A stretch of 64,000 nucleotides of DNA from Planktosalinus lacus (lineage in GTDB: Bacteria; Bacteroidota; Bacteroidia; Flavobacteriales; Flavobacteriaceae). Location of the stretch: NCBI RefSeq assembly GCF_014640155.1, contig NZ_BMGK01000002.1, positions 258,589 through 322,588 on the forward strand, written 5' to 3'. Below, one piece after another: positions 29,540 to 32,472 of this stretch (its first letter is position 1; each line of letters opens with the position of its first letter). The position numbers and the translations under genes were made by a program. Under the pieces are notes generated by a model that was not told the origin of the DNA, did not search any database, and worked only from the letters and a program-made list of their open reading frames with translations.

Positions 29540-29585
29540 ACTAAAGACTTAACTTTGAGTTGACTTTAAAAATCAAAAACTATTG

Positions 29586-31409
29586 ATGAAATACTTCAAA
29601 AAAATCCTTCGCTTTGCGATACCTTATAAAACGTATGCCATACTAAATATTGTCTCTAATATTTTTTATGCGTTGTTCAGCACCCTCGCTATGTTGTCGC
29701 TCTTTCCTATGATGAAAGTACTTTTTGACAATACCAAGCAACTTCAAACTAAACCTGTCTGGACCGGTTTAAACAATGCTAAAGAATATCTGGAAAACTC
29801 CTTGAATTATTTTGTCACCCAACAAAAAAGTCAGGGTGTTGATGATGTATTGATTTTTATGGTCATCCTGGTTATTAGTATGTTTTTACTCAAAAACCTG
29901 TTCAATTACCTGGCGATGTATTTCATTACTTTTTTACGCAACGGTGTCTTGAAAGACGTGCGCAATGCGATGTACAAAAAAACCATTGAATTACCGCTTT
30001 CACATTATTCTGAAAAACGTAAAGGAGACACCATTGCCAGAATCACCAGTGATGTTTTGGAAATTCAACATTCGTTTTTATCTATACTCGAATTAATTGT
30101 AAGAGAACCGCTCACGATAATTTTTACTATTGTTGCGATGTTCCTGATCAGTGTTGAACTCACCATTTTTGTATTTATATTTTTACCGATTTCAGGCTTT
30201 ATCATTTCGTTGATTGGTAAATCTCTGAAGCGTAAATCTGACAGAGTTCAAAAAGAACAAGGCTATTTCTTATCTATTTTGGAAGAAAGTCTTGGAGGGT
30301 TGAAAATTATAAAAGGGTTTAATGCGGAAAATATTTTTACGGATAAATTCAAAAACTCAACCCAAAGATTTTACAACTTTTCAAACAAACTACTCAACCG
30401 GCAAAACCTGGCCTCACCGGCAAGTGAGTTTTTAGGAATCTCAGTAATAGCAGTATTACTCTGGTATGGAGGAAAGCTTGTGTTAATTGACGAAACACTA
30501 GATCCTGAAATGTTTCTCGTCTATATGGGGCTTGCCTATCAAATATTGACACCGGCAAAAGCAATTTCCAAAGCCTCTTACAGTGTCAAAAAAGGCAATG
30601 CTGCCGCTGAACGAATTTTAGAAATTCTTGAAACAGAAAATGTAATAAAAGACAAGCACGATGCTGTTGAGAAGGATGAATTTCAAAACATATTAAGCCT
30701 CACTGATATCTCATTTAAATATGAAAATGAACTTGTACTGAAAAACTTCACACTCGATGTAAAGAAAGGACAAACGGTGGCATTGGTGGGCCAAAGCGGA
30801 AGTGGAAAAAGTACGATTGCAAATCTCCTTACCCGTTTCTATGATGTAAATAACGGAGCAATCACAATTGACGGGATGGACATCAGAAACATTAAATTAA
30901 ATTCACTCAGAAATTTAATGGGGCTAGTCACTCAAGATTCTATTTTATTCAACGACACTGTGAGAGGCAACTTAAAGATTGGAAAAGAAAATGCAACTGA
31001 TAAAGAAATCATTGACGCACTTAAAATTGCCAACGCCTGGGAATTTATTGAAAATCTACCGCAACAACTTGACACTAATATTGGTGATAGCGGTAACAAA
31101 CTCAGCGGCGGACAAAAGCAACGTCTCAGCATTGCCCGTGCTGTTTTGAAAAACCCACCCATAATGATCCTAGACGAGGCTACTTCAGCACTTGATACTG
31201 AAAGTGAACGCCTGGTTCAAAATGCTCTTGAAAAAATGATGCAAAACAGGACCTCCATTGTCATAGCACATAGGCTCTCAACGATTCAAAATGCAAATAA
31301 AATAGTTGTGTTATCAAAAGGGGAAATTGTAGAACAGGGAACCCATCAAGAGTTACTTGCCAATAAAGGAGTGTATTTCAGCCTTATTGAAATGCAGTCG
31401 TTTGATTAA
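29586..31409 (+). CDS. MsbA-like ABC exporter (fused membrane and ATPase domains)
   Basis: 607 residues. The N-terminal half has about six membrane helices of the ABC transporter type I exporter class, beginning LRFAIPYKTYAILNIV. The C-terminal ATPase has Walker A GQSGSGKST, signature LSGGQKQRLSIARA, Walker B IMILDEATSALD and the H-loop AHRLST. As a half-transporter it acts as a homodimer. The MsbA branch flips lipid A or other lipids, and related ones export drugs or peptides, so substrate is tentative. The ATG at 29586 was chosen; the TTG one codon before it is less likely. A strong bidirectional terminator lies 23 bp after the stop. Confidence 0.88.
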   Translation: MKYFKKILRFAIPYKTYAILNIVSNIFYALFSTLAMLSLFPMMKVLFDNTKQLQTKPVWTGLNNAKEYLENSLNYFVTQQKSQGVDDVLIFMVILVISMFLLKNLFNYLAMYFITFLRNGVLKDVRNAMYKKTIELPLSHYSEKRKGDTIARITSDVLEIQHSFLSILELIVREPLTIIFTIVAMFLISVELTIFVFIFLPISGFIISLIGKSLKRKSDRVQKEQGYFLSILEESLGGLKIIKGFNAENIFTDKFKNSTQRFYNFSNKLLNRQNLASPASEFLGISVIAVLLWYGGKLVLIDETLDPEMFLVYMGLAYQILTPAKAISKASYSVKKGNAAAERILEILETENVIKDKHDAVEKDEFQNILSLTDISFKYENELVLKNFTLDVKKGQTVALVGQSGSGKSTIANLLTRFYDVNNGAITIDGMDIRNIKLNSLRNLMGLVTQDSILFNDTVRGNLKIGKENATDKEIIDALKIANAWEFIENLPQQLDTNIGDSGNKLSGGQKQRLSIARAVLKNPPIMILDEATSALDTESERLVQNALEKMMQNRTSIVIAHRLSTIQNANKIVVLSKGEIVEQGTHQELLANKGVYFSLIEMQSFD

Positions 31410-31431
31410 GCAGAGATTGCATACTAAATAA

Positions 31432-31514
31432 AAAAAAAGCGAACTTTTTAGTTCGCTTTTTTATTTAATCTGTCGCTTTATTTGGGGCACAAAGCAACGA
31501 TGTTTTGCATAAGT
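31432..31514 (-). ncRNA. candidate small RNA A of a tandem pair
   Basis: Predicted from layout: TTTG at 31548-31545, -7 box TACTTTTA at 31528-31521, expected start near 31514, and a 12-bp terminator stem (31462-31433) followed by nine T on the minus strand, giving an RNA of about 83 nt. It contains TGCCCCAA at 31489-31482. The same elements occur at matching offsets in unit B, 252 bp upstream on the same strand. A short ATG reading of ten codons (from 31510) is possible but is not shared in frame by B. Expression is not shown by sequence alone. Confidence 0.6.
31433..31462. terminator. shared bidirectional terminator (ABC exporter, RNA A)
   Basis: Stem AAAAAAGCGAAC / GTTCGCTTTTTT with loop TTTTTA (31445-31450). 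A T run follows on both strands: it can end the plus-strand ABC exporter transcript (stop 31409) and the minus-strand RNA A. Confidence 0.9.
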
Positions 31515-31520
31515 AGAGTG

Positions 31521-31590
31521 TAAAAGTAAAACATAAAAAGTTATCAAACAAATATTTTTTGTATTTTATCTGTGTTTTTTGTATTTCATC
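31521..31590 (-). promoter_or_regulatory. promoter and twin direct repeats of RNA unit A
   Basis: On the minus strand: direct repeats GATGAAATAC (31590-31581) and GATAAAATAC (31570-31561), period 20 bp; TTTG at 31548-31545; -7 box TACTTTTA at 31528-31521. The repeats on one helix face fit the binding site of a dimeric activator such as a LytTR protein; that identification is inference. Confidence 0.55.
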
Positions 31591-31673
31591 GATTTTTATA
31601 ACTATTTAATAAGTGTCATTCCTACATTTTCAACAGCCCTTCAAGTTAAATTAAACTCATTCATTTAAAAGAC

Positions 31674-31768
31674 CTAAAAATAAAAGGCAGGTCCTTTAGA
31701 ACCTGCCTTTCCCAAACTTGTTAACTATTACAATTGGGGCATATAATAGTAAACATAACCGCATAAGA
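31674..31768 (-). ncRNA. candidate small RNA B of a tandem pair
   Basis: Promoter-like TTTG at 31800-31797 and TATCTTTA at 31781-31774, expected start near 31768, and a terminator stem (AAAGGCAGGT / ACCTGCCTTT, 31710-31683) followed by TTTTATTTTT on the minus strand, giving about 95 nt. TGCCCCAA at 31741-31734 stands at exactly the same offset from the upstream direct repeat as in unit A. Outside the conserved blocks the two RNAs differ and their terminator stems are unrelated, which suggests old duplication with selection on promoter and C-rich motif. Confidence 0.6.
31683..31710 (-). terminator. terminator of RNA unit B
   Basis: Ten-bp perfect stem AAAGGCAGGT / ACCTGCCTTT; on the minus strand the stem is followed by TTTTATTTTT, on the plus strand by CCC, so it works in the minus direction. 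Confidence 0.8.
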
Positions 31769-31773
31769 TGGTG

Positions 31774-31842
31774 TAAAGATAATAAGATTTTTCTTACAAA
31801 AAAATAAATTTAGCTTTTTGTCTATCTTTTTTGCATTTCGTC
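31774..31842 (-). promoter_or_regulatory. promoter and twin direct repeats of RNA unit B
   Basis: Direct repeats GACGAAATGC (31842-31833) and GACAAAAAGC (31822-31813), again with 20-bp period; TTTG at 31800-31797; -7 box TATCTTTA at 31781-31774. All positions align with unit A without gaps to within 1 bp. Confidence 0.55.
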
Positions 31843-31929: not shown

Positions 31930-32472
31930 TTGGTTGAAGAAACACAGTTTATAAACGAGCTCCAGTCTGAACAAACAAAAGACGCTGCTTTTAAAGAGCT
32001 TATCCGCCTTTATAAAAAGAGATTGTATTGGCACATTAGAAAAATGGTTTTAAATCATGATGATACTGATGATGTGTTGCAAAACTCCTTTATTAAAATA
32101 TATAAAAACATTCATCTATTTAAAGGGGAAAGTAAATTATATTCCTGGATGTACCGCATTGCAACCAATGAGGCCATTACATTTCTCAATAAAAAAGCAA
32201 AACACACAGGCACTACTTCAGAGGAGCTAAAACAAAATACCCTTAAAAACCTTGAAGCAGATGTTTATTTTGAAGGGACAGAAATTCAGTTGAAACTACA
32301 ACAAGCCATTGCAACACTCCCTGAAAAACAACAGCTGGTGTTCAATATGAAATATTTTGATGAGCTGACCTATGAAGAGCTCTCCGAAATTTTAGACACC
32401 TCAGTAGGTGCCTTAAAAAGTTCCTATCACATTGCAGTAAAAAAAATAACTGCAATTTTAACCGAGGATTAA
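31930..32472 (+). CDS. ECF-type RNA polymerase sigma factor, TTG start
   Basis: 180 residues. Region 2 is recognised in DDVLQNSFIKIYKNIHLFKGESKLYSWMYRIA (typical DxLQxxFxxxxxxxxxF...WLxxIAxN) and region 4 in LPEKQQLVFNMKYFDELTYEELSEIL with the helix-turn-helix that reads the -35. No ATG exists near the expected N-terminus; TTG at 31930 gives the standard length. It heads a three-gene operon with a membrane-anchored protein and a periplasmic LTxxQ-like protein, a layout common for flavobacterial ECF systems in which the next two act as anti-sigma and sensor. Target regulon unknown. Confidence 0.9.
   Translation: MVEETQFINELQSEQTKDAAFKELIRLYKKRLYWHIRKMVLNHDDTDDVLQNSFIKIYKNIHLFKGESKLYSWMYRIATNEAITFLNKKAKHTGTTSEELKQNTLKNLEADVYFEGTEIQLKLQQAIATLPEKQQLVFNMKYFDELTYEELSEILDTSVGALKSSYHIAVKKITAILTED

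Follow-up and report, generated by a model that had tools for sequence, protein, structure and literature searches.

Two predicted small RNAs of Planktosalinus lacus belong to a position-conserved RNA family of Flavobacteriaceae with a putative LytTR-type promoter box and a C-rich loop matched in mRNA leaders

What is encoded by two similar units on the minus strand between an ABC transporter gene and a sigma factor gene of Planktosalinus lacus? The window analysed here is the whole stretch of 64,000 nucleotides introduced above. Its ABC transporter gene (29583-31409, plus strand) is the convergent neighbour and its ECF-type sigma factor gene (31930-32472, plus strand; named from the protein reading) the divergent neighbour of the units, and both served as synteny anchors. 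On sequence reading, unit B (31842-31676) and unit A (31590-31430) each comprise a promoter, an RNA and a terminator. The first-pass annotation had placed them at 31842-31674 and 31590-31433, and both are present as it described. The ungapped likeness that it reported over 109 nt was confirmed, with 60 of 109 positions identical. None of 20,000 shuffles reached this value (mean 33, sd 4.6), and a score of 60 was reached by just two of 8,968 AT-rich 109-mers of the window, A itself and B. TTTG at positions 43-46 and TGCCCCAA at 102-109 are in exact register in both units. TAnnTTTA and TTATGC are also common to both, but not quite at the matching offsets claimed for them: TAnnTTTA lies at 63 in A and 62 in B, and TTATGC at 79 in A and 77 in B.

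Both units contain the direct repeats GAYRAAAWRC-N10-GAYRAAAWRC without a mismatch, as annotated. In unit B the box covers 31813-31842 (minus strand; GACGAAATGC at 31842-31833 and GACAAAAAGC at 31822-31813, 20-bp period) and the promoter 31774-31800 (minus strand; TTTG at 31800-31797 and TATCTTTA at 31781-31774). The corresponding elements of unit A are the box at 31561-31590 (minus strand; GATGAAATAC at 31590-31581 and GATAAAATAC at 31570-31561, 20-bp period) and the promoter at 31521-31548 (minus strand; TTTG at 31548-31545 and TACTTTTA at 31528-31521). Both promoters can be accepted as being of the Bacteroidota type proposed for them. The -7 box of flavobacterial sigma-A is TAnnTTTG, and the RNA start points were placed by this rule (-12 to -5; PMC9723704). 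The 5′ ends so inferred from the -7 box give a predicted RNA B of ~94 nt (31676-31769, minus strand) and a predicted RNA A of ~87 nt (31430-31516, minus strand). Terminator hairpins are predicted on the minus strand at 31682-31711 in B and 31433-31462 in A; both are strong and they differ from each other, in agreement with the annotation. It was also correct that no protein frame is common to the units, whose ORFs of 10 and 22 amino acids are unrelated. Two paralogous small-RNA genes are thus supported, and the sequence makes a strong case for transcription of the predicted RNAs A and B. Between the units (31619-31626, minus strand), TGTAGGAA is invariant in the genus, where it lies upstream of A in L002-L005; it resembles TTGTAGGAAA, found at the -33 region of B promoters in other genera.

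The feature overlooked in the annotation is a covarying hairpin carrying GCCCCAA in its apical loop, so that each predicted RNA is a hairpin followed by a terminator. The hairpin occupies 31724-31750 in RNA B (minus strand; GCCCCAA at 31740-31734) and 31472-31498 in RNA A (minus strand; GCCCCAA at 31488-31482). GCCCCAA is predicted to be unpaired, with probabilities of 0.8-0.99 in B and 0.99-1.0 (~1.0) in A. The stem beneath it varies yet stays paired, being ACTATTA/TAATAGT in B and, in A units, GTTGCTTT/AAAGCGAC, GCTGTTAT/ATAGCAGC or GTTGTCAC/GTGATGAC. When 12 units were aligned with plain MAFFT, each of the 8 hairpin pairs had changes on both sides, and the covariation score was 0.767 against 0.363 for shuffled alignments (0/500), with slid registers giving at most 0.32. 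For 53 matches of named records, in an alignment fitted to the model, the score was 0.839 against 0.308. CCCCAA is present in 58 of 60 loci. In many A-type RNAs (L014/L182, L123-L131) the terminator loop is also GCCCCAA, which gives two C-loops per RNA.

The distribution of the units was examined with a covariance model built from the box, promoter and hairpin, at a cut-off of E <= 0.01. Matches were obtained in 66 of 199 genomes of the Flavobacteriaceae. In the genome of P. lacus itself the model found only A and B, and a search by loop pattern gave no convincing further copy; the 'multicopy' family envisaged earlier is therefore not a feature of this genome, and the wide occurrence is in relatives. 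Among the relatives, the A/B pair is kept in 4/4 other genus members. Across the five species, 'CATCTTATGCGGTTAyG' of unit B is invariant except for one base, and the longer 'CATCTTATGCGGTTAyGTTTrCTATTATAwGCCCCAATTrTAATAGT' has four variable bases only. Of the 60 loci fetched, 59 adjoin the same converging ABC transporter gene, and in 56 the same diverging sigma-factor gene lies next to the locus as well; phosphomutase, anti-sigma-like and further neighbour genes are usually retained as well. Since synteny was not a search criterion, it provides independent confirmation of homology down to E ~0.005. Named carriers are Winogradskyella, Mangrovimonas, Altibacter, Gelidibacter, Hyunsoonleella, Algibacter, Xanthomarina, Psychroserpens, Aureisphaera, Tamlana and Christiangramia. 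In Zobellia, Flagellimonas, Maribacter, Aequorivita and Lentiprolixibacter the gene order is kept with a short spacer and the RNA is absent, and F. daejeonense, the one Flavobacterium genome examined, yielded no RNA locus. Extra weak model matches in Algibacter, Christiangramia and F. daejeonense consist of a box or box-like sequence without the C-loop and were rejected. AGCGGGGGCT, considered as a dispersed element, occurs at background level outside B units.

A match to a known RNA family had been named as a finding that would speak against the annotation. Rfam gave 0 matches in the window and in the loci of 6 relatives; the best sub-threshold match was Phe_leader (29 bits, 55 required), and a lax threshold returned chance-level matches only. 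The RNA family of Flavobacteriaceae is undescribed among open papers and in Rfam, the comparison with Rfp18 being by description only.

Across the sRNA promoters the box consensus is TCGATNAAATGCA occurring twice, 20-21 bp apart; its core ATGAAATGC is repeated at 20 bp in 43 of 76 promoters and at 21 bp in 30 of 76. Taking the 9-nt core, the repeats are 11-12 nt apart. LytTR promoters carry two 9-11-nt repeats separated by 11-13 nt, and the putative box of the sRNA promoters has this spacing (PMC4847170). The repeat bound by the LytTR protein YpdB of E. coli is GGCATTTCAT-N11-GGCATTTCAT (PMC4847170). The core ATGAAATGC is the exact reverse complement of GCATTTCAT, part of the YpdB repeat, and GGCATTTCAT agrees with TGCATTTCAT of the other strand in 9 of 10 bases. 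This core identity with a YpdB half-site makes it likely that a LytTR-type regulator acts at the putative box. An activator box of LytTR geometry, as the annotation suggested, is accordingly supported by spacing and core match at the level of regulator class. The connection that it suggested with the 42-46 kb LytTR locus was not supported: the genome has ten LytTR genes and none was singled out. In the fetched flanks of these ten genes no box better than 6 mismatches was seen, and choosing a regulator by similarity to YpdB was non-discriminating (23-29% identity for six LytTR proteins).

In the 2.97-Mb genome, exact GAYRAAAWRC-N10-GAYRAAAWRC matches two sites only, those of A and B; one mismatch adds three more sites, and the reversed control none. 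With 3 mismatches allowed, the box was found in 30 of 30 genomes, at up to ten sites each (reversed control, 0). Box genes were collected by searching for the box in either orientation 30-110 nt before an ATG. As judged by simple ORF and sequence reading, used for both gene starts and secretion calls, most of their products have signal peptides and would be secreted or surface proteins. They include large adhesin-like proteins, CAP-domain lipoproteins, a YhhN-like protein and a 7TMR-DISM/GerE membrane protein. In P. lacus itself, box genes encode a subtilisin-like protease (L286, named from sequence reading), a zinc-ribbon protein and a Fer4_19 protein.

Several of these genes have further characteristics. 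The 7TMR-DISM membrane protein with a C-terminal LuxR-type (GerE) domain has the box in six genera (L284, L293-L297); its genes have the conserved leader TACCCAAATT, and most contain AACCTACT. The zinc-ribbon gene (G000:C1:253770-253802, L313) has the box upstream here and in four other genera (L318, L322, L326, L331), and in 5/5 a C-rich stretch (CCCCA) lies in the first codons. Considered as a candidate binding factor, the box-controlled zinc-ribbon protein showed no Pfam family above cut-off. At SixA-like phosphohistidine phosphatase genes (L274, L305, L306, L309) the box ends 6-30 nt from the start codon, a placement suggestive of repression.

The leaders of box genes were compared with the sRNAs for a C-box, defined as CCCCA or CCCAAA in the same sense as in the sRNAs. 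It occurs in 17 of 50 leaders of the discovery set, which prompted the idea. In a later second set, taken from the genomes used for the first and with gene families partly the same, it occurs in 11 of 21 leaders, against 14 of 347 control leaders drawn from the same loci (Fisher p = 3e-9). Collapsed to gene families, the counts are 14 of 34 and 14 of 347 (p = 2e-9), and ~60% of box-gene families are without the leader motif. The leader C-boxes tend towards hairpins, for example cataaCCCCAAAttatg (own genome), acatcaTGCCCCAAATTtgatgt, ttagtCCCAAactaa and agaagCCCCAAATcttct, with a mean stem of 4.6 against 3.8 in shuffled sequences (0/200). AACCTACT is present in 9 of 71 box-gene leaders, 2 of 347 controls and 29 of 60 sRNA loci. 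The sRNA and mRNA elements are on the same strand, which is expected for a decoy, unlike an antisense seed. At the level of sequence comparison, these analyses establish a predicted RNA family together with its structure, synteny, box and regulon-wide leader motif.

On balance it seems probable that A and B are small-RNA genes of a position-conserved, LytTR-controlled family which mimics the leaders of its regulon and titrates a factor. A LytTR-type response regulator would bind the putative box beside the -33 element and activate the A/B RNAs together with the box genes. The RNAs with their C-rich loop would then compete with box-gene mRNA leaders for a factor acting in trans, which could be an RNA-binding protein or else a partner RNA rich in G, and this competition may tune translation or stability of the regulon. 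Action by such mimicry, that is, as decoys, appears moderately likely from the sequence relationships. The absence of the leader motif from ~60% of box-gene families, and of CsrA and RRM_1 proteins from the genome, counts against it. The hairpin could be common to mRNA and sRNA for other reasons, for example 5′-end stability or common origin, and the G-rich elements present in RNA B would speak rather for pairing between RNAs.

The annotation had proposed that a C-rich seed pairs with ribosome-proximal, G-rich targets. On this account, to which we give a minor share of the probability, the RNAs are antisense sRNAs resembling streptococcal csRNAs or staphylococcal RNAIII, whose C-rich loop seed pairs with G-rich stretches near start codons. 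The predicted fully open loop agrees with it, and C-rich seeds are a common sRNA design. F. psychrophilum Rfp18 is, moreover, predicted to pair with protease mRNAs via a stem-loop, but flavobacteria are without Shine-Dalgarno sequences, the usual G-rich site (PMC9723704). UUGGGGC-N0-25-AUG has 92 matches in the genome of P. lacus against 68 for the reversed pattern; among the ~50 of 92 sites inspected, none was at a convincing gene start, the matches being internal or spurious. In box-gene leaders, G-rich complements show no enrichment (4% against 3% in controls), whereas the same-sense C-boxes do, which weakens the seed-pairing proposal.

Less probable still is an antagonistic pair, in which an anti-C-loop element of B would kiss the C-loops of A or of leaders, as a sponge or riboregulator. 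This element would be UUUGGG in the genus (31711-31716 in RNA B, minus strand; complementary to CCCAAA; conserved in 5/5 species) and a G-rich terminator loop, GCGGGGG, elsewhere. Outside the genus the upstream unit of tandem loci carries this G-rich loop, complementary to CCCC, and it is retained where the CCCC loop of B itself has been lost (L136, L142) as well as in the off-locus RNA L174. However, B often has its own C-loop and may simply self-fold, and most of the family is a single RNA without a G-rich loop, so that antagonism between A and B cannot be the core function. The G-rich elements of tandem-locus RNAs make a partner RNA an alternative to a protein factor, at least where two RNAs exist. 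L174 (G094) is a box-promoter RNA outside the usual locus; it lacks the C-loop and carries just the G-rich terminator loop TTAGCGGGGGCTAA. That the units are remnants of leaders or attenuators, or tiny-peptide genes, rather than trans-acting RNAs is highly improbable. An ATG lies within TTATG near the 5′ ends of both RNAs, the terminator directly follows the hairpin, and similar hairpins occur in true mRNA leaders. Against this, the two ORFs are unrelated and share no frame, several single-copy members have no ATG, the next gene is convergent, so that none follows on the strand of the units, and the hairpin covaries at the RNA level.

The favoured decoy reading can be set beside known systems. 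AgrA/RNAIII of Staphylococcus aureus has a LytTR-type regulator which, through a two-repeat promoter box, governs secreted-protein genes as well as a regulatory RNA. VirR/VR-RNA of Clostridium perfringens is alike in the same respects (PMC4963840). The RNAs of both systems are much longer (VR-RNA, 386 nt), whereas here two ~90-nt RNAs of Bacteroidota have an invariant CCCCAA hairpin loop and no Rfam match. Streptococcal CiaR csRNAs are also small paralogous RNAs with a hairpin and terminator, controlled by a direct-repeat-binding response regulator (PMC3091779), but their box is TTTAAG-N5-TTTAAG with an 11-bp period. They are thought to pair with SD/AUG via an unpaired linker, while the conserved part here is the apical loop, for which the ~50 of 92 UUGGGGC-AUG sites inspected gave no convincing antisense target. 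FopS/GibS with RbpB in Bacteroides are paralogous Bacteroidota sRNAs with a sigma-ABfr promoter that act on surface-protein genes; they differ in having 14 dispersed copies and a 5′ seed that pairs with susC start sites (PMC11697453). An RRM_1 protein (PF00076), the class expected by comparison with RbpB, is absent from the P. lacus genome. Rfp18 is a conserved flavobacterial sRNA affecting secreted metalloproteases (PMC9723704); in F. daejeonense, the sole Flavobacterium genome examined, the present RNA locus was not found and only a weak box-like match occurs elsewhere. CsrB and RsmZ, RNAs under two-component control, are molecular mimics that repeat a loop motif of mRNA leaders (PMC4005645, PMC7652899). 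As in the Csr/Rsm decoys, the loop motif here recurs in the same sense in leaders of the predicted regulon, but it is CCCCAA and not GGA, and CsrA (PF02599) is absent from the P. lacus genome. By analogy, the circuit would repeat the logic of the GacA-RsmZ/CsrB decoys under a LytTR regulator.

Outside Bacteroides, little is known of post-transcriptional control in Bacteroidota, and models based on the Shine-Dalgarno sequence do not transfer. A wider and clearly more tentative possibility is a Csr-like global circuit of the Flavobacteriaceae, in which a LytTR-switched surface-protein regulon has leaders with a CCCCAA hairpin, the decoys show the same hairpin and titrate RNA-binding proteins of a new class, and some clades have a G-loop RNA that counteracts the decoys. 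What is gained is a family-wide predicted small RNA whose loop is invariant and whose promoter box is defined, together with a predicted regulon of secreted proteins under LytTR control and a leader element that matches. Combined, these elements form a circuit open to experiment and a bait for the factor that would bind.
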